7,316 nt of DNA from an uncultured Synechococcus sp. (GTDB taxonomy: Bacteria > Cyanobacteriota > Cyanobacteriia > PCC-6307 > Cyanobiaceae). A program made the position numbers and the translations under genes. The stretch spans positions 1 through 7,316 of the forward strand of contig CAJWAH010000068.1 in assembly GCA_913020095.1 (NCBI GenBank), read 5' to 3'. This document shows, in pieces, positions 1-7,316 of this stretch. Numbering within the stretch: the stretch's first letter is position 1; every line of letters starts with the position of its first letter. The notes below the pieces were generated by a model that was given only the letters and a program-made list of their open reading frames with translations, ran no database searches and was not told where the DNA came from.

Positions 1-559
1 ACACCAGGATCGTTGGAGCGGCCAGCGCTACAAACGACAACTTGATTAGAACTCCAAGCAAAAGGGTGCTGAGTTGCAGCAAATAACTGACTAAGGGAAG
101 GGTTTCTTGGCGGATGCGGCAGAGCGCTGTGAGGCTGACGATCAGGCAGAAGCTGTTGAAGAGCGCATCCAGCCGTTGGGAGGTCAAAAAGGCGAGCACC
201 AGCAGCATTAGCCAGCTCAGGGGATGACCGATTTGCCGGCGCAGGCTGAGCATCGCGGCCCCCCAGCCCAGGCCATAGAGCCAGCGGCCTAGCAAAAAGA
301 AATTGAGGTTCTCGCTGACCTGACCTGTGTAGAGCTGGTGGTACGGGCCAAAGGTGAAGACCACATCGCTGCCATAGAGGCGGCCGGCATCGGTGGCCTG
401 AACAAGCGACTCCACCCAGCCCGGGTCAAGGCCGATCCAGGGGGTGCGAATCGGCAGGCTCCAGATCAAAGCGGTGGCTGCTGCCAGAAACAGCAGCCCA
501 TCGAGCAACCGCGTGGACCACTGCTGTGACGTCGTTGGACGGCGCAGCGTCAGCGGCAT
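1..559 (-). CDS. Multi-spanning membrane protein, unrecognised function, C-terminus cut off by window edge
   Basis: Reading the minus strand from an ATG at 559 gives 186 open residues that run off the left edge. A basic N-terminus is followed by a hydrophobic helix at about residues 18-36, then a loop with LDPGW (44-48) and GSDVVFTFGP (63-72). Several more hydrophobic stretches follow, roughly five or six membrane helices in the visible part. The DP-W then D-VFTFGP loop resembles a group of large bacterial inner-membrane proteins, often annotated as hypothetical or glycosyltransferase-like; that link is from memory. A GAGAG a few bases before the ATG may be the ribosome binding site. The gene starts 39 nt after the stop of the glycoside-hydrolase-like gene on the same strand, so it is probably the last visible member of the prs unit. 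A role in polysaccharide or envelope assembly is inference only. Confidence 0.75.
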   Translation of the reverse strand, partial: MPLTLRRPTTSQQWSTRLLDGLLFLAAATALIWSLPIRTPWIGLDPGWVESLVQATDAGRLYGSDVVFTFGPYHQLYTGQVSENLNFFLLGRWLYGLGWGAAMLSLRRQIGHPLSWLMLLVLAFLTSQRLDALFNSFCLIVSLTALCRIRQETLPLVSYLLQLSTLLLGVLIKLSFVALAAPTILV

Positions 560-598
560 TAGCTCTCAAAAGAAGTGGCTGGAACCTTACTGGAGCTT

Positions 599-1777
599 TC
601 AGAAGGGCAGGATCTGCTCGCCAAAGAGCTCCGCGTGGCGCCGGCGCAGGCCTTGGCGCCGGAAGTTGCCACCTTCAGGTCCTGCGTACTGTCCCCACAG
701 CCCTTCCCAATAGAAGTAGACCGCGCCAAAGCCGCGCTGATGGGCCAGTTGCAGCTTGCGGTGCAGCTTGGTCATCGGTGTGGTGCGTCCGCCAAAGCCA
801 GCCAGGATGCCGATGTGCACGGGGATGCCCCAGCTTTGGGCCCGTCGAATCGCGCTCTGGCCTAAATCGTTTTGGAAGCCTTTGAGCGAGTAGGCGTAGT
901 TCTGCACGATCAGCTCATCCACCAGGCCCCGCACAGCCCAGATCTCCCAGTCTTGAAGCCACTGGTTGTAGGCAAAGCGAAAGGGGCCCGGCGAGAGGCT
1001 GATGCGCTCATTGCCGCCGCTCTCGGCTAGGGCGATCCGCAGGCTGAGCAAGAGTTCGGTGAGCTTGCCCCTGCGCCAGTTCATCCAGGCCCGGTTGCTG
1101 AAATCGGCTGGAGGGTCTTCGCCGGTCTCACGGCGGTAGAGCTGGCGCGTGTAGTCGTCGTAGCCGAGCTCCACCGGCCAGGCGAAATGGTCATCGAGCT
1201 GGATGCCATCGGCGTTGCAACGGCTGGCGATCTCTGTGATCAACCCCACAAACCGCTCTTGCACCCCTGGATGGGCGGGATTGAGCCACACCCGCAGGTC
1301 TTTGAGGGGCGAGGTTTTGAGGTTGGCGCCATGCATGGCGTAGAGGCTTGAGCCATCGGAGCGCTTCAGCACCCACTCGGGGTTTTGCTGCACCACCGCC
1401 GCATCAGCGGGCTCCATCAGCCCGTATTCAAACCAGGGGATCACCTGCATGCCCCGCTGCTGGGCGCTGCGGGTCAGGCGGCAGATGGGATCCAGATCAG
1501 GGGCATCGCGCTGCAGTTGGGGCTCCATCGGTGCCCAGCGGCTGCGGTGGAAGGTGGCGCCCCTGCTCCACACATTGGGGTAGAGCGTGTTGAACCCAGC
1601 GGCATCAAGCTGCTGCACAGCACGCTCGATGCGCTTTGGGTCGTAGTACAGCGGGCTGGGGCTGTTGGTGAGCCACACCCCCACGCGGCGGAAGTCGGCG
1701 CGGACTGGAGCGGAGATCAGGCTCAGGGCCAAGCTGGCCAGCAGCCCACAGGCGCTGAACCGGCGCAACCGTGTCAC
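599..1777 (-). CDS. Secreted glycoside-hydrolase-like protein (GHL10 / DUF187 type)
   Basis: The 392-residue product starts with a Sec signal peptide: basic MTRLRR, a hydrophobic core at about 10-23, and a V-R-A cleavage site near residue 27, so it is exported. The mature part looks like a TIM barrel of the family-10-like glycosyl hydrolases. GVWLTN is at 33-38, FNTLYPNVW at 62-70, VIPWFEYG at 112-119, WLNP at 164-167 and GIQLDDHF at 191-198, where D195/D196 sit in the expected active-site strand. SLSPGPF and VQNYAYS follow later. Family members are thought to act on cell-surface or peptidoglycan-type glycans, but substrates are mostly unproven. The start is GTG at 1777, overlapping the prs stop as GTGA, which implies translational coupling to prs. 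No domain appears broken, and the length is normal for a single-domain member. Confidence 0.88.
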   Translation of the reverse strand: MTRLRRFSACGLLASLALSLISAPVRADFRRVGVWLTNSPSPLYYDPKRIERAVQQLDAAGFNTLYPNVWSRGATFHRSRWAPMEPQLQRDAPDLDPICRLTRSAQQRGMQVIPWFEYGLMEPADAAVVQQNPEWVLKRSDGSSLYAMHGANLKTSPLKDLRVWLNPAHPGVQERFVGLITEIASRCNADGIQLDDHFAWPVELGYDDYTRQLYRRETGEDPPADFSNRAWMNWRRGKLTELLLSLRIALAESGGNERISLSPGPFRFAYNQWLQDWEIWAVRGLVDELIVQNYAYSLKGFQNDLGQSAIRRAQSWGIPVHIGILAGFGGRTTPMTKLHRKLQLAHQRGFGAVYFYWEGLWGQYAGPEGGNFRRQGLRRRHAELFGEQILPF

Positions 1778-2769
1778 CGAAACATCGAGCTGACCGAGCT
1801 CTCCTCGTGAATCCGCCAGATGGTTTCGCCGAGCATGTTGGCGACCGAGAGCATCTGCAGCTGCGGGAAGCGGTCCTCCGGTGCCACTGGGATGCTGTTG
1901 GTGACCACCACCTCTTCAAACAAGCCGGGCTCAGAGAGCCGCTCAACGGCAGGGGGTGAGAACACGGCATGGGTGGCGCAGGCGATCACCCGCTTGGCCC
2001 CTTGCTGACGCAGCAGCTTGGCCCCTTGGGAGATCGTGCCGCCGGTGTCGATCATGTCGTCCACCAACACGGCGGTTTTGCCGCTCACATCACCAATCAC
2101 GGTGAGGCTTTCGGCCACGTTGTGGGCGGAGCGGCGCTTGTCGATGATGGCCAGAGGAGCGTCGTCCATGCGCTTGGCGAAGGCCCTGGCGCGGGCCACG
2201 CCACCCACATCGGGTGAGACCACCACCACTTCGCCGAGATCGCGGGTGGCCAAGTAATCCACCAGCACCGGAGCGCCGTAGATGTGATCGCAAGGAATGT
2301 CGAAATAACCCTGGATCTGGGCTGAGTGCAGGTCCATCGCCAGCACGCGGTTGACCCCGGATTCCTTCAGCAGGTTGGCCACCAACTTGGCGGTGATCGA
2401 CTCACGGCCTGCTGTTTTGCGATCAGCGCGGGCGTAGCCGTAGTAGGGGATCACAGCGGTGATCTGCCTGGCCGAAGCCCTGCGGCAGGCATCCACCATG
2501 ATCAGCAACTCCATCAGGTGGTCATTGACCGGAGCGCAGGTGGGCTGCACCAGAAACACATCGCAGCCGCGGATGGATTCTTGAATTTGGATATAAAGCT
2601 CGCCATCAGCAAATCCCTTGCTGACCCGTGGACCGACGGGAATGCCGAGATAACCAGCGATTTCCTGAGCCAGAGCGGGGTTGGAATTGCCGCAAAACAG
2701 ACGAAGTCTTGAACTGTCGACTGCTGTTGGTGTCGGCACGCTGCGCTCGGTGGCCACGTAACTGGTCAC
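1774..2769 (-). CDS. prs: Ribose-phosphate pyrophosphokinase (PRPP synthetase)
   Basis: This enzyme makes 5-phosphoribosyl 1-diphosphate from ribose 5-phosphate and ATP in the cytosol, feeding purine, pyrimidine, NAD, histidine and tryptophan synthesis. The 331-residue product has the class I layout: LFCGNSNPALAQEIA (24-38), FADGE (53-57), the catalytic flexible loop YGYARADRK (110-118), the metal-binding DLHSAQIQGYF region with H148, SPDVGG (185-190), and the PRPP-binding loop VLVDDMIDTGGTI (234-246). All key motifs are intact. The start is GTG at 2769; it gives an N-terminal extension of about 20 residues before the conserved LRLFCG, which is common in cyanobacterial Prs as I recall it. It is the first gene of a minus-strand unit with the glycoside-hydrolase-like gene (4-nt overlap) and is divergent from the gene at 2821. 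Confidence 0.97.
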   Translation of the reverse strand: MTSYVATERSVPTPTAVDSSRLRLFCGNSNPALAQEIAGYLGIPVGPRVSKGFADGELYIQIQESIRGCDVFLVQPTCAPVNDHLMELLIMVDACRRASARQITAVIPYYGYARADRKTAGRESITAKLVANLLKESGVNRVLAMDLHSAQIQGYFDIPCDHIYGAPVLVDYLATRDLGEVVVVSPDVGGVARARAFAKRMDDAPLAIIDKRRSAHNVAESLTVIGDVSGKTAVLVDDMIDTGGTISQGAKLLRQQGAKRVIACATHAVFSPPAVERLSEPGLFEEVVVTNSIPVAPEDRFPQLQMLSVANMLGETIWRIHEESSVSSMFR

Positions 2770-2820
2770 GGTACTGGCCCAGGCCTCTCAGACTTCGATG
2801 GTAGAAGCGAGCCTGCACCT
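2770..2820. promoter_or_regulatory. Divergent intergenic region between prs and the 2821 gene
   Basis: These 51 nt must carry most of the start signals for prs on the minus strand and for the small gene on the plus strand. On the minus strand a TACCAT lies about 25 nt before the prs GTG and resembles a -10 box, but I see no convincing -35 at the right spacing. No operator-like palindrome is evident. The promoter role is inferred from the divergent layout. Confidence 0.4.
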
Positions 2821-3294
2821 TTGACAGCTATCGAGCGTCTGTTCTGTTGCAGCCCCCATGGCAGTGCGGTGATGCCGGCGCTGGCCCAGGCCTGGGATCA
2901 GCTCAAGTGGGGGCCCCAGCGCTGGTTGGAGGCCGGCTCAACCATCCAAAACCTGGCGCCCAAGGGTGAACGGCTACTGCTGCTCTCCGCTGGCGCAGAG
3001 CTGGTGGATTGGGCCGAAGCCGTTGCGGCTTGGCGCCTGCCAACGCTGCTGTTGATTCCAGCGGGTGAGCGCCTGCGGGCTGAAGCGGCTCTGCATTACG
3101 CCCTGCTTCAACAGCAGCAGGTGCCTGTGTTGGGCCTGTTGCAGGTGGGGGAGCCATGGCACCCCGCTGATCGCCAGGCTGATGCCCTGCCTTGGTTGGG
3201 GTGTTGGAGGCCGGATGAACCCCAAGAGCTGGCCGCCTTTGGCAGCCTGCTGCAGCAACGCTTTCTGCAGCTCGATCCCTCCCAGGGCGCTTGA
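2821..3294 (+). CDS. Unrecognised small cytosolic protein
   Basis: The 157-residue product has no signal peptide and no membrane helix. I do not recognise a named domain. Visible features are an N-terminal C-C-S-P-H-G stretch (residues 9-14), a WGPQRW segment (30-35), hydrophobic strands such as LLLLSAG and LPTLLLIPAGE, a Gln-rich run (LLQQQQ), and a Trp/Pro-rich C-terminal third. Alternating strands and helices suggest a small alpha/beta fold. The start is TTG at 2821, the only start in frame before the conserved-looking N-terminus; the next choices are GTG at 2869 and ATG at 2872. The TTG lacks a strong ribosome binding site. It lies 51 nt from prs, divergent, and ends 3 nt before the LCP gene that reads towards it. 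Base composition matches its cyanobacterial neighbours, so it is probably a lineage-conserved hypothetical gene. Confidence 0.75.
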   Translation: MTAIERLFCCSPHGSAVMPALAQAWDQLKWGPQRWLEAGSTIQNLAPKGERLLLLSAGAELVDWAEAVAAWRLPTLLLIPAGERLRAEAALHYALLQQQQVPVLGLLQVGEPWHPADRQADALPWLGCWRPDEPQELAAFGSLLQQRFLQLDPSQGA

Positions 3295-3297
3295 GCT

Positions 3298-4485
3298 TCA
3301 GGGGCGCCAGTCCTGCCCCAGCAGCACGGCGATTCCCGTATCCGGTGGGGTGGGCCCAGGTTGCAATTCGCCCTGCCCTAGGGCGCGCTGCACCGCCAGT
3401 GCTTCAGCTCGCCCACCGCTGTAGCGAATCAAGGTGCGCGGCAGCGGGGCCTCCAGCGGCAGTTCGGCCTCATAGGCCGGTTGGCCCGCGCGCCTGAGTT
3501 GGTTGAGGGCTTGGCCAGTGCTGATGGCATCACTGCCCATCACGGCCACGGCGGTGTCGCTGTCGCTGGGGGGGCGCTGGCTCAGCCAGCGCTCCAGCAC
3601 GCTGCCTGCTTGGCCTTGATCCAGCCTCGGGCTACCCCCCTCGCTTTGCAGCGGCAGCCGGGTGATGCGCATGCGGCTGGGTTGCTGCAAGCCAGCGGCC
3701 AGCAGGCTCAGGATTTCACCTTTGGAGAGGTTGGTGCTGCTGGTGTTGTTGAGCTCCTGCAGCAATTCGGGTAGCAAGGGCACCACGGCTGGATCGCCAA
3801 GCCGCTCAGCTATCGGCAACAGCAGTTCCTGTTGGCGTTGGCGCCGTGCCCCTTCACTGCCGGTGCCGCGCAGGCGCAGCAGCTGCAGGGCCTGCTCGCC
3901 GCTGAGCCATTGCTGGCCGGCTTCGAGATTGATGTTGAGGCCTCCGGCTTTGTCCTGGTAGCGCAATGGGGTTTGCAGCAGGAACGGGATGCCGCCAGCG
4001 GCATCAATCGCTGCGCTGAGGCTGCTCATGGGAATTAGTGCGTAGCGGTCGGGCCGCAAGGGCTCGCCAGAGCCCCCCAGCAGTTGGCTCACCACATCGC
4101 TGGTGAGGGCTACACCGCCGAGTTGGTAGAGCTCCTGCAAGGGCACCAGTTGGTTCTGGCCTGGCAGCAGCACCTCCAGCTCACTGGGAATCTGCAGCCA
4201 GTCCATCCCGCCTGTGGGGTGGACGCGCAGCATCAGCATCAGCTGAATCTCGCCTTCGGCCGGGCTGCTCAGGTTGGGCTGATCGAGGCCTAAGAGCAGC
4301 ACGGTCTGCGCTTGGCCCGGTGGTTCGGCCAGGCGGCTGATGGCAGGCCGCTGCTCATCGAGCGAGATCGTTTGCCTGGGGATCAAGCGGTCAGCGACCC
4401 ACACGCCGGCCAACAAGCCGCCAAAGGCCAAGCTCACCCGCCAAACAATGCGTGTGCTGCGGCGGAGATCGGCCCAGGCACCCAT
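3298..4485 (-). CDS. LytR-CpsA-Psr (LCP) family protein with atypical catalytic motifs
   Basis: LCP proteins transfer lipid-linked polymers to peptidoglycan or other envelope acceptors. From ATG at 4485 the product is 395 residues: a short cytosolic basic start, one membrane helix at about 13-35, then an outer domain. LLLGLDQ (63-69), the LQIP strand (97-100), a G-LTSDVVSQLLG helix, DAAGGIPF, the N-I-N-L-AGQQWLSGEQALQLLRLRG segment and R-RQRQQ match the LCP order. The usual RSDT is replaced by GEIQ and the usual IPRD by IPSE (99-102), so two catalytic or phosphate-binding positions differ. A C-terminal extension of about 150 residues resembles the LytR C-terminal (LytR_C) type domain in position only. 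The frame stays open upstream to 5076, but that stretch lies antisense to bciB. MGAW before the membrane helix is the natural start. Confidence 0.82.
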   Translation of the reverse strand: MGAWADLRRSTRIVWRVSLAFGGLLAGVWVADRLIPRQTISLDEQRPAISRLAEPPGQAQTVLLLGLDQPNLSSPAEGEIQLMLMLRVHPTGGMDWLQIPSELEVLLPGQNQLVPLQELYQLGGVALTSDVVSQLLGGSGEPLRPDRYALIPMSSLSAAIDAAGGIPFLLQTPLRYQDKAGGLNINLEAGQQWLSGEQALQLLRLRGTGSEGARRQRQQELLLPIAERLGDPAVVPLLPELLQELNNTSSTNLSKGEILSLLAAGLQQPSRMRITRLPLQSEGGSPRLDQGQAGSVLERWLSQRPPSDSDTAVAVMGSDAISTGQALNQLRRAGQPAYEAELPLEAPLPRTLIRYSGGRAEALAVQRALGQGELQPGPTPPDTGIAVLLGQDWRP

Positions 4486-4539
4486 GGCATACGGCAACGG
4501 AGTGGCAGATAGTTTGGAGCCTGTGGTGATCTCTGTCTG
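4486..4539. promoter_or_regulatory. Divergent intergenic region between LCP gene and bciB
   Basis: These 54 nt separate two divergent starts and so should contain both promoters. TAGTTT at 4510-4515 is a weak -10-like match on the plus strand; no good -35 accompanies it. I see no palindromic operator. The role is inferred from layout alone. Confidence 0.35.
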
Positions 4540-6099
4540 TTGACCCTCGCCCCGCATCAAAAGGCCAAGCCGATGGCCAGGGGCACGGTGCGTCCGGCCA
4601 AAGACCTGTGCAGCGACTGCGGCCTCTGCGACAGCCGTTGGGTGGCCTACGTGCGCCAGGCCTGTGCCTTTATCCATCAGCAATTTGAGTCGCTGGAGCG
4701 CAAAGCCCACGGCCGCAGCCGCGATCTCGACAACGAAGACGAGCTCTATTTCGGCGTCAGTGAGCGGATGTTTTGCGCCCAGCTGCAGCAGCCGCTGGAG
4801 GGTGCCCAATGGACGGGCATCGTCAGCACCCTTGGGGTGAGGGCCCTCGAGCAGAACCTGGTGGATGCGGTGCTCTGCGTGCAGCAGAGCCCTGACGATC
4901 GCTTCACACCCATGCCAGTGCTGGCCCGCACGCCCCAGGAGGTGTTGGCGGCGCGGGTCAACAAGCCCACCCTCTCCAACAACCTTTCGGTGCTGGAGCA
5001 ATTGCCAGGCAGTGGCATCAAACGCCTGCTGGCGATTGGGGTGGGTTGCCAAACCCAGGCCCTGCGCGCTGTTCAAGACAGCCTTGGCTTGGAGGAGCTC
5101 TACGTGCTGGGCATGCCCTGCGTGGACAACGTCAGCCGCGAAGGCCTGCAGACCTTTTTGGAGAGCACCAGCCGTTCACCCGAGACGGTGGTGCACTACG
5201 AGTTCATGCAGGATTTCCGTATTCATTTCCGCCACAGCGACGGCAGCACCGAGACCGTTCCCTTCTTTGGGCTGGATACCCCCAAGCTCAAAGATGTCTT
5301 TGCCCCCAGTTGCCTCAGCTGCTTTGACTACGTCAACGCCTGCGCTGACTTGGTGGTTGGCTACATGGGCGCGCCGTTCCAATGGCAATGGCTGGTGGTG
5401 CGAAACCAGCGGGGCCAAAAGCTTTTGGATCTGGTAGAGGCTGAACTCAAAACTCAGCCGGTGATGAGCTCAGGCCAGCGGGCCCAAGCGGTGCAACAGG
5501 GGATTGATGCCTACGACAAGGCCCTGCGGTTGCCCCGTTGGTTAGCCGAAGTGGTCGGTGTGGTGGTGCAGCGAGTAGGACCGAAGGGTCTGGAATATGC
5601 CCGCTTCTCCATCGATTCCCATTTCACGCGCAACGCCACCTGGCTGAGGCGCCATCACCCCGAGAAATTGGCGCAGCATCTGCCGGCTTTCGCTCAAAAG
5701 ATCGTGAGCCGCTACCGCCTGCCGCAGCCTTCAGCGAAGCGCAGCATGCCTCACATCATCCCGACCAAGGCCGCCAGCAAGACGCTCTTCGTCATCGACA
5801 TGGTGTGGAACGGTGGCACAACGATCGAAACCGAGGCGCTCGCGTGGAGTGACACGCCTGATCCTGCGAACGAGTTTGCCTGCAAGCTCTGGGGGCAGCA
5901 GTGGGGCTTTGAGCATGGACTGGACCCGGCGCCTACGATGCGCACAACTCCCGGAGAGGTCCCAGTGCGCTCCATTGCCAGCGCGTCCACACACTGTGCC
6001 GAGGCTCACTCACCGCTTGCAGAGAGGCCACAGTGTGTTCAGGCACACGCACTCGCACGCGCAGCGTGCTCAGGCGCACACACTCACTCGAAGTGCTGA
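4540..6099 (+). CDS. bciB: Ferredoxin-dependent 3,8-divinyl chlorophyllide 8-vinyl reductase (slr1923/BciB type), with an unrelated C-terminal run-on
   Basis: The enzyme reduces the 8-vinyl group of divinyl (proto)chlorophyllide with electrons from ferredoxin, using iron-sulfur clusters and FAD. It belongs to the FrhB (F420 hydrogenase beta) family, which also holds plant 7-hydroxymethyl chlorophyll a reductase. Seen here are C24-x2-C27-x2-C30, DELYFGV, QWTGIVSTL, NKPTLSNNLSVLEQ, GVGCQTQALRAVQ (C170), PCVDN (C194), VHYEFMQDF, and APSCLSCFDY with C258 and C261, all as in cyanobacterial homologues. The family match ends at about residue 395 (RYRLP, near 5724). The frame then continues for about 125 unrelated residues to 6099; I regard these as foreign DNA at a junction, so the native stop is missing. 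The start is TTG at 4540, favoured because homologues as I recall them share the PHQKAKP segment. ATG at 4573, preceded by AAAAGG at 8 nt, is the alternative. Confidence 0.9.
   Translation: MTLAPHQKAKPMARGTVRPAKDLCSDCGLCDSRWVAYVRQACAFIHQQFESLERKAHGRSRDLDNEDELYFGVSERMFCAQLQQPLEGAQWTGIVSTLGVRALEQNLVDAVLCVQQSPDDRFTPMPVLARTPQEVLAARVNKPTLSNNLSVLEQLPGSGIKRLLAIGVGCQTQALRAVQDSLGLEELYVLGMPCVDNVSREGLQTFLESTSRSPETVVHYEFMQDFRIHFRHSDGSTETVPFFGLDTPKLKDVFAPSCLSCFDYVNACADLVVGYMGAPFQWQWLVVRNQRGQKLLDLVEAELKTQPVMSSGQRAQAVQQGIDAYDKALRLPRWLAEVVGVVVQRVGPKGLEYARFSIDSHFTRNATWLRRHHPEKLAQHLPAFAQKIVSRYRLPQPSAKRSMPHIIPTKAASKTLFVIDMVWNGGTTIETEALAWSDTPDPANEFACKLWGQQWGFEHGLDPAPTMRTTPGEVPVRSIASASTHCAEAHSPLAERPQCVQAHALARAACSGAHTHSKC
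5724..5746. other. Probable junction between cyanobacterial and eukaryote-like DNA
   Basis: Left of here the plus-strand frame encodes conserved BciB sequence up to IVSRYRLP. Right of here the same frame encodes sequence unlike that family, followed by intron-like and exon-like blocks. No tRNA gene, terminal inverted repeat, transposase or obvious target-site duplication marks the change. The exact base cannot be fixed without a homologue alignment; the true breakpoint could lie a few tens of bases to either side. Confidence 0.6.
5746..5958 (+). CDS. Exon A (putative): unrecognised N-terminal or internal segment
   Basis: About 71 residues with natural composition begin at an ATG at 5746 in the same frame as bciB. 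They contain KTLFVIDMVWNGG, TPDPANEFACKLWGQQWGF and DPAPTM. I recognise no domain. The Trp/Phe/Cys content looks like folded protein, unlike the low-complexity residues that follow. A donor at GAG|GTCCCA (5959) would end the exon in phase 0; this donor is a weak match to consensus. The exon may instead begin at an upstream acceptor lost at the junction, since the ATG is internal to an open frame. Confidence 0.4.
5989..6038. repeat. 10-bp inverted repeat within putative intron 1
   Basis: ACACACTGTG at 5989-5998 is the reverse complement of CACAGTGTGT at 6029-6038, with a 30-nt spacer. Spacing this long and the CA/GT-rich composition make chance likely. There is no U run after it, so it is not a bacterial terminator for bciB. 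Confidence 0.4.
6039..6087 (+). repeat. Imperfect 18-bp direct repeat, CA-rich
   Basis: TCAGGCACACGCACTCGC at 6039-6056 recurs at 6070-6087 as TCAGGCGCACACACTCAC, matching 15 of 18 bases with starts 31 nt apart. The array of CAC/CGC steps looks like degenerate simple-sequence repeat, of a kind common in eukaryotic introns and not seen in the cyanobacterial part of the window. Confidence 0.55.
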
Positions 6100-6130
6100 A
6101 AGACTGACGATGCGCGCTTTCTTGATGTAG

Positions 6131-6287
6131 TGCTACGACGAGTATGGCGTGTTCAATCTTGGGGGAGCAAGCCTGTCCATCAAAGTGAGCCGGGTCGACT
6201 CGTGCCCATATTACTTCAAGACAAACTTGCTGAAGCTCGCGCTCAAGTCTCGTGGCATCCACACCAGCGGGTCCAGAAACGAGCTCG
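6131..6287 (+). CDS. Exon B (putative): first part of a SAP domain
   Basis: Directly after a TAG at 6128-6130 the frame reads CYDEYGVFNLGG and onwards for 53 codons, ending with YYFKTNLLKLALKSRG and then HTSGSRNEL. Leu-x-x-x-Leu-Lys-x-Arg-Gly followed by Thr-Ser-Gly-x-(Lys/Arg)-x-x-Leu is the core of the SAP helix-turn-helix motif, which binds AT-rich DNA or RNA in nuclear proteins. Unspliced, the frame stops at TGA 6290-6292, just before the second SAP helix is complete. There is no usable start codon at its beginning and no ribosome binding site, so it is not a free-standing bacterial gene. The exon would end in phase 1 at CTC G|GTTGAC. Confidence 0.62.
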
Positions 6288-6375
6288 GTTGACCATGCCT
6301 GCCAAGGCAGCCTTGTTGAAGTGATATTTTCAGTGGGTTTGTATGCCACTTACATCTGATCGCCCCGGTACACAG
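6288..6375 (+). other. Putative intron 2, 88 nt, interrupting the SAP motif
   Basis: The stretch begins GTTGAC and ends GGTACACAG. Its removal joins the single G left from exon B to CT of exon C, making an Ala codon. The peptide then reads S-G-S-R-N-E-L-A-E-R-L-W-A-H, a good ending for a SAP motif (EL-xx-RL). The stop at 6290-6292 falls inside the intron. This is the strongest single argument that the right part of the window is spliced DNA. Confidence 0.66.
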
Positions 6376-6632
6376 CTGAACGACTCTGGGCGCATATGCA
6401 AGAGCCGGCTGCGTTTGCCTCAGTGTTGGAGTCTGGAAGAAAACCCTCTCCTCAAGAAGCAGCCGCTGCCACCAACCTGCAGGGCATCCACTTCTTGGAG
6501 CAATTCCTCAACCCTTGCGATGCCCCGGCTGAAGCGTTCGCGTTTCCTTCGCTTGACCCTCTGCCTCAGGAAAAGGCCAAGCGAGATCTCAGCGGCTACA
6601 ACCTCTTCTGCAAGGCTTATCGTGAGCAGAAG
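6376..6632 (+). CDS. Exon C (putative): end of SAP motif and first helix of HMG-like box
   Basis: Two bases complete the split Ala codon, then 85 codons follow. The segment starts ERLWAHMQEP, finishing the SAP motif. It passes through a linker rich in Ala, Pro and Glu (SGRKPSPQEAAAATN, FLEQFLNP) and reaches KAKRDLSGYNLFCKAYREQK at its end. Lys/Arg-x-Leu-Ser-Gly/Ala-Tyr-x-Leu-Phe is the helix 1 signature of HMG-box proteins. Read unspliced, the frame stays open to 6839 but loses HMG resemblance in the following residues. The donor AAG|GTACGC at 6633 matches the eukaryotic consensus well and leaves phase 0. Confidence 0.6.
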
Positions 6633-6741
6633 GTACGCCATCAAACCATAACTCCCACAGCCAATCTCTCACGAATGCTTGCCTCTGCGCTGAATGTCTC
6701 GCTGTATCCGCTACACTGCCACTCCGTGGCCACGATGTCAG
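6633..6741 (+). other. Putative intron 3, 109 nt, inside the HMG-like box
   Basis: This stretch has donor AAG|GTACGC and acceptor GATGTCAG|GCC, both in phase 0, and removing it moves the frame by exactly the step needed to reach the downstream block. The join gives YREQK-AKTGSREAWKRMS. The resulting HMG segment is about 12 residues shorter than a canonical box between helix 1 Phe and helix 2 Trp, so this boundary pair may not be exact. A canonical-length alternative would keep NLSRMLASA and skip about 76 nt, but that lacks GT...AG ends. Confidence 0.45.
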
Positions 6742-7218
6742 GCCAAAACGGGGTCCCGGGAAGCTTGGAAGCGTATGAGCGCAGACGAGAAGAAGAAATG
6801 GCGTGGCGTGGCCAACGCCGCCGCCAAGACCCGTCTTGAAAAGAAATTTGCCGAGCCACAAGCACGCTCGAGCTTCATGCCTGCCGCCGATGGCGCAGGC
6901 GTGGGTGCTGGAGGAGCTCCAGCTCCTGCATCATCCTCTGCCCTCTTCCCGCTGAATGCTTGTCCTGGTGCTGATCTGCATCGTCCCGGGCTTTTGGCGG
7001 GTCACCGTGGGGCCTTGCAGCCTGTTAATGGCAACAGTTTGAACCCACCAGCTGCCCAGATGCCCAGAGTGGTGGATGGCAGCGATTGGGACCCATCAGC
7101 TGCTGCCCCCATCCTTGGTCTCGGCGAGCAGTGGGTGACGCTGACTCATCCGTCAACGTCTGAGCCATACTACTGGAACCGACTGACCGGCGTTACGCAG
7201 TGGCAAAAGCCCTTCTGA
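6742..7218 (+). CDS. Exon D (putative): rest of HMG-like box, low-complexity linker and WW domain
   Basis: The exon has 158 codons plus TGA. It opens with SREAWKRMSADEKKKWRGVA, a good match to HMG helices 2-3 (W-K-x-(L/M)-S-x-(D/E)-E-K-x-x-(Y/W)), and a basic AAKTRLEKKF. An Ala/Gly/Pro/Ser-rich linker follows (GAGVGAGGAPAPASSS). The C-terminus is a WW domain: first Trp at 7132, then THPSTSEPYYWNRLTG, second Trp at 7201 and Pro at 7210, with the Tyr-Tyr-aromatic-Asn strand and Thr-x-x-W-x-x-P in the right spacing. WW domains bind Pro-rich ligands and are overwhelmingly eukaryotic. A bacterial caller might start this frame at ATG 6694, but residues before AKTGSREAW are unlike any HMG sequence. 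No ribosome binding site precedes 6694. Confidence 0.7.
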   Translation, partial: AKTGSREAWKRMSADEKKKWRGVANAAAKTRLEKKFAEPQARSSFMPAADGAGVGAGGAPAPASSSALFPLNACPGADLHRPGLLAGHRGALQPVNGNSLNPPAAQMPRVVDGSDWDPSAAAPILGLGEQWVTLTHPSTSEPYYWNRLTGVTQWQKPF

Positions 7219-7316
7219 TCAATTGAACAGTCTGAGCCTCTGTCTCCTGGGTGGCGCGATCGAGTGACTTGATTACGACAGTCATCGGACCATCGTCATC
7301 GTCAATCAGCATGGCA
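7219..7316. other. Right-edge non-coding flank
   Basis: These 98 nt after the WW-domain stop show no open frame of note, no AATAAA signal and no hairpin with a T run. A short ATCGTC repetition occurs near 7290-7304. It is probably 3' untranslated or intergenic sequence of the eukaryote-like gene. Confidence 0.35.

Follow-up and report, generated by a model that had tools for sequence, protein, structure and literature searches.

The closest described counterparts of the 88-nt segment studied here are the spliceosomal GT-AG introns of protists; spliceosomal introns are, to our knowledge, absent from bacteria. Group I and group II introns are longer than the segment. Two further systems bear on the comparison, namely eukaryotic proteins with SAP (PF02037), HMG box (PF00505), and WW (PF00397) domains, and the chimeric contigs found in draft and metagenome-assembled genomes. 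Symbiodinium minutum is reported to have weak 5′ splice signals, and to use GC and GA donors in addition to GT (PMC4083563).

The window (the whole stretch of DNA that was analyzed, 7,316 nucleotides) is, as judged by its alignments, a chimera of cyanobacterial and foreign DNA. It can be said with considerable confidence that the window consists of 5.7 kb of Synechococcus DNA followed by a 1.6-kb fragment of a likely eukaryotic gene, brought together most likely by misassembly, and that 6288-6375 probably represents an ordinary GT-AG intron of the spliceosomal type within the fragment's gene. The features are collected in Table 1. Like protist spliceosomal introns, two segments of 88 and ~109 nt in the window run from GT to AG, interrupt domain-coding sequence, and restore an open frame upon removal; they differ in that they are predicted from sequence alone and in that their donor contexts, GTTGAC and GTACGC, look weak. 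Weak donors would fit the splice sites reported for Symbiodinium minutum. A dinoflagellate origin, with which such donors and a multicopy family would be compatible, was considered and is not claimed. The encoded domains make it likely that the foreign part is eukaryotic. It resembles eukaryotic SAP, HMG box, and WW proteins in having a WW domain above its cut-off, an HMG box above its cut-off in one of two joins, and a SAP-like segment (LLKLALKSRGIHTSGSRNELAERL), but differs from them in that the SAP match falls below its cut-off and in that the relatives are mostly single-exon ORFs.

Table 1. Features of the window, with the evidence on which each was placed.
Feature	Coordinates	Strand	Basis
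Synechococcus (RCC307-like) chromosomal DNA	2..5729	.	colinear alignments and Pfam matches
Junction	5729..5730	.	GCAGCC/ATGA in RCC307, GCAGCC/TTCAGC in the window
Tentative upstream exon, ...TMRTTPGE	5731..5958	+	open in the frame continuing from frhB; conjectural
Tentative intron 0, 172 nt, GT...TAG, CA-rich middle	5959..6130	+	conjectural
Exon 1, SAP-like segment	6131..6287	+	SAP 17.4 bits alone, 21.4 bits spliced to exon 2, both below cut-off; similar segment fused to WW exon in P0002
Predicted intron 1, 88 nt, GTTGAC...CACAG	6288..6375	+	GT...AG ends, open join
Exon 2, ends in HMG box first half (GYNLFCKAYREQK)	6376..6632	+	five relatives 75-84% identical; P0005 matches the window's ORF exactly
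Predicted intron 2, 109 nt, GTACGC...GTCAG	6633..6741	+	frame change between exons 2 and 3; alternative donor 6696 (46 nt) possible
Exon 3, HMG second half, linker, WW domain, stop TGA 7216-7218	6742..7218	+	WW above cut-off; four relatives

The exon 1 frame starts directly after a TAG codon (6128-6130) and runs for 53 codons from 6131 to the TGA at 6290-6292, exactly where the original prediction had placed the stop of the unspliced frame. Its claim that excision of an 88-nt GT...AG segment keeps the frame and gives NEL-A-ERL was likewise found to be exact in the letters: removal of 6288-6375 yields SGSRNELAERLWAHM, and the predicted join of exons 1 and 2 reads ...SRNELAERLWAHMQEP... and stays open through 6632. 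The segment carries the GT 5′ end and the AG 3′ end expected of a spliceosomal intron. From 6360, where the exon 2 frame opens, to 6400, the sole AG listed is the one at 6375.

The further assertion, that such agreement would be hard to get by chance, stood in part. Pairing of 11 donors with 13 acceptors gave 143 GT-AG joins (joins shorter than 30 nt were skipped yet counted in this number), and phase and stop removal alone mean little, because 54 of these joins give an open joined frame. In dinucleotide shuffles of 6290-6395, with donor 6288 and the exon 2 frame held fixed, some open join was obtained in 2854 of 5000 cases; one that also placed xx[RK][LIVM] after NEL was obtained in 82, and a stricter pattern in 22. 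Recovery of the SAP motif is about a 1-in-60 event given the donor, which is suggestive but short of decisive.

Scoring of the joined peptide against the SAP profile, proposed in the original prediction as a check, gave a divided result. SAP scores were obtained for seven of the 54 open joins, among which the predicted join ranked best, with 21.4 bits for a 138-aa peptide compared to 17.4 bits for the unspliced 53-aa peptide, but it remained below the curated cut-off of 23.9 bits. Longer versions of the same join scored 21.1 bits (with an added upstream piece), 20.5 bits (206 aa), and 19.8 bits (296 aa). Four other joins from donor 6288 scored 16.2, 18.3, 17.7, and 16.9 bits, and the joins 6252/6375 and 6271/6439 gave no SAP match. 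The best match spans profile positions 10-32 of 37. Formal SAP membership was not reached, because every peptide scored fell below 23.9 bits.

Other identities for the 88-nt segment were considered and rejected. For a group I or group II intron, the window gave 0 Rfam matches at gathering score, and the segment folds no better than its shuffled versions (z 0.68; 152 of 200 shuffles equally or more stable). A tRNA origin was dismissed for want of a match, and an intron-like mobile element with terminal repeats was dismissed because none of the repeats of at least 12 nt found in 5731-7316 flanks 6288-6375.

The second predicted intron lies within the HMG box. The second half of this domain (REAWKRMSADEKKKW) is encoded in exon 3 in a different frame from the first half, so that uniting them requires a GT-AG excision whose length is 1 mod 3. 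Fourteen of the 56 joins tested between exons 2 and 3 give an open frame. With donor 6633, the HMG box profile (curated cut-off 25.4 bits) was matched in two pieces at 23.1 bits by a 69-aa peptide, and at 17.4 bits by a 296-aa peptide. With donor 6696, a 90-aa peptide scored 26.1 bits, above the cut-off, through removal of 46 nt, which is short for a spliceosomal intron. The WW domain in the exon 3 ORF was matched over the whole profile (positions 1-31) at 8.3e-08 and 32.6 bits, above the cut-off of 26.9 bits, which places it in the family. It is the one WW match in the whole assembly, and of 14 control prokaryotes, 7 gave matches below the cut-off and 0 above it. A WW domain above its cut-off, a second frame-restoring GT-AG segment across the HMG box, and relatives of exons 2 and 3 on other contigs together provide better support for the predicted introns than the SAP turn does. 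Upstream of exon 1, removal of 5959-6130 could join the open frame of 5731-5958 to exon 1 in phase; no Pfam match was found for 5731-5958. A 21-nt direct repeat (76%; 6673-6693 and 6954-6974) links predicted intron 2 with exon 3, possibly by chance.

Relatives of the foreign part turned up only in single-exon searches. The search with the WW end yielded four proteins among 14 candidates, with 90-100% identity over 80-100% of the searched part. The search with exon 2 yielded six among 11, five of which share 75-84% identity with it across 99-100% of the 80 residues used; P0005, from the same search, has the sequence of the window's own ORF and belongs to a cluster for which a single contig, of 2546 bases, is listed. 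Contigs carrying relatives of exons 2 and 3 have the source labels "ena" and "lgn", the longest per cluster being 571 to 6718 bases. The five exon 2 relatives continue to resemble the window for ~15 more residues (VRHQTMTPTANLSRM or near) and then end in RAFYMPLR. Among them, conservation stays almost at the level of the exon across the first 15 residues' worth of predicted intron 2. Their indels keep the frame inside the exon and apparently lose it after LSRM, as in non-coding DNA; an indel not divisible by three is suggested there, as judged from the relatives' proteins, because the window codes PLR and a stop in another frame at this point.

The protein P0002 contains exon-1-like and exon-3-linker-like segments in one 124-aa ORF, with the rest skipped. 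Because it fuses both segments, exons 1 and 3 were assigned to one gene family, of which rearranged copies exist. P0002, which has no exon 2, may itself be a deleted copy or an odd transcript. In another protein, P0001, the WW end matches the window exactly and the part nearer the HMG end diverges from it, a pattern like that of a multicopy family. None of the relatives found has exon 1 joined to exon 2.

The strongest alternative is that 6288-6375 is not an intron at all, the foreign stretch being a degenerate copy of a gene, or the two exons not being spliced to each other, and the SAP turn having arisen by chance. This reading draws on the many open GT-AG joins, on the frequency of the turn among shuffles, on the sub-threshold SAP score, and on the rearranged or deleted copies represented by P0002 and P0004, but it is unlikely, as the join with the best SAP score uses the sole AG in the conserved exon 2 frame before MQEPAAF, other contigs hold conserved versions of exons 2 and 3, and the exon-1-like and exon-3-like segments share one ORF in P0002. 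What fits 6288-6375 best is a spliceosome-type intron in eukaryotic coding DNA, and in this the original prediction was upheld, although it had overweighted the SAP evidence, given a score below the Pfam cut-off and the many joins that stay open. Points against the proposed reading are the sub-threshold SAP scores, the higher HMG score with donor 6696, the conservation seen at the start of predicted intron 2, the weak-looking donors, and the negative searches with the spliced 296-aa protein described below.

Cyanobacterial homologues holding the 88 nt, which the original prediction had named as evidence against itself, were not seen. When 5731-7316 was compared with 400 genomes of the family, drawn from a larger group, five genomes gave matches at E<=0.001: the source genome itself, which matched over the full length, and four others with scraps of 28-46 bases each. 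Thus, 395 of the 399 other genomes gave nothing and four gave scraps (at most two candidates were scored per genome among the matches listed), and the scraps were taken as chance rather than as other carriers of the foreign part. Within the source assembly, the foreign part matches itself alone. Six of its peptides, searched against genome contigs, gave 39 stretches that fit a pattern and no relative (records very near the source genome may be excluded there). With the spliced 296-aa protein as query, no relative emerged from the protein search, in which scores were computed for the 7991 candidates with the most shared words, nor from genome contigs, nor from viral contigs (9 stretches, none a relative). 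Viral contigs were also compared with alignments built from the relatives of exon 2 and from those of exon 3, which gave 33 and 6 stretches, respectively, and no relative.

That the contig starts as cyanobacterial DNA, as had been claimed, was confirmed. The first part of the window is colinear with the chromosome of the marine strain Synechococcus sp. RCC307 (L025, CT978603.1), with 93.8% identity across 5729 aligned positions, and with the metagenome-assembled genome SW22112_bin_11 (L026, JAAXIH010000179.1), with 92.5% identity. Pfam matches identified genes for a GHL10 glycosyl hydrolase-like protein and a ribose-phosphate pyrophosphokinase, and this part also contains smaller ORFs and a frhB-like gene (4540-5729). 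The RCC307 alignment stops one base short of the frhB stop codon, which is lost at the junction. Of nine records compared, out of 80 fetched, six had their last match position at 5729, two at 5728, and one at 5723. Both L025 and L026 continue past the junction point into the frhB stop and then into the next gene, all of which is replaced in the window. In L025, that gene encodes a 4-alpha-glucanotransferase (Glyco_hydro_77, 376 bits), and its remainder was found on another contig of the same assembly, C20, which ends inside the gene and resumes 173 bases beyond the junction, as counted along RCC307 (L025:6115 to 6289).

Host homology at the junction thus ends abruptly, with the native continuation elsewhere in the same assembly, as in an assembly chimera. 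The C20 end and the junction likely represent the pattern expected from an assembly break with a wrong extension. The source assembly comprises 1.52 Mb in 235 contigs, with 74% completeness and 0.3 contamination, and is likely a metagenome-assembled genome. As in other chimeric contigs of such genomes, the window's contig has a foreign end, and its native neighbor is a contig end of the same assembly; in the window, the false join is deduced from sequence. The surprise of an intron in a cyanobacterial contig vanishes, because homology stops abruptly at 5729/5730 and the native continuation is on another contig of the assembly.

A real insertion, by which an RCC307-group Synechococcus population carries part of a eukaryotic nuclear gene together with its spliceosomal introns where the frhB and 4-alpha-glucanotransferase genes meet, is highly improbable: the junction does lie at a gene boundary, frhB retains its last residue (CCT for CCA), and the contig was binned with this assembly, but the two close genomes are intact at the site, the native sequence resumes after so short a gap at a contig end, as expected from a broken assembly, a second junction was not observed, no mobile-element family was found among the seven ORFs scanned, and the relatives of the gene are on other, short contigs. 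If true, the insertion would be a fresh eukaryote-to-cyanobacterium DNA transfer caught before decay. Misassembly rather than insertion is the most likely origin of the junction.

The junction yields a 519-aa open frame (4540-6099), in which frhB runs into the foreign part, and this frame with its foreign tail may be recorded in databases as one cyanobacterial protein. A separate record, titled as a metagenome-assembled genome of Bifidobacterium breve (L089, CALPNT020000149.1), has a frhB-like gene that is 79% identical to the cyanobacterial one of the window; its label looks wrong, because this gene resembles the cyanobacterial one.

From the fragment, we infer splicing, the exact donor of intron 2, and the function of the protein. 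The proposed gene would encode, in order, a SAP-like segment, an intron, a linker and the first half of the HMG box, a second intron, the second half of the HMG box, and the WW domain. In the source eukaryote, the predicted introns would be spliced out of the pre-mRNA to give what would be a nuclear SAP-HMG-WW protein associated with nucleic acids. The cyanobacterium would not express the spliced product as such. For the Synechococcus genome, these findings remove a likely false alarm, that of an intron in a cyanobacterium, and the last 1.6 kb of the contig should be separated from it. The foreign fragment provides a lead to a SAP-HMG-WW gene family, several variants of which are present on public contigs, and its source could be named from protist transcriptomes.
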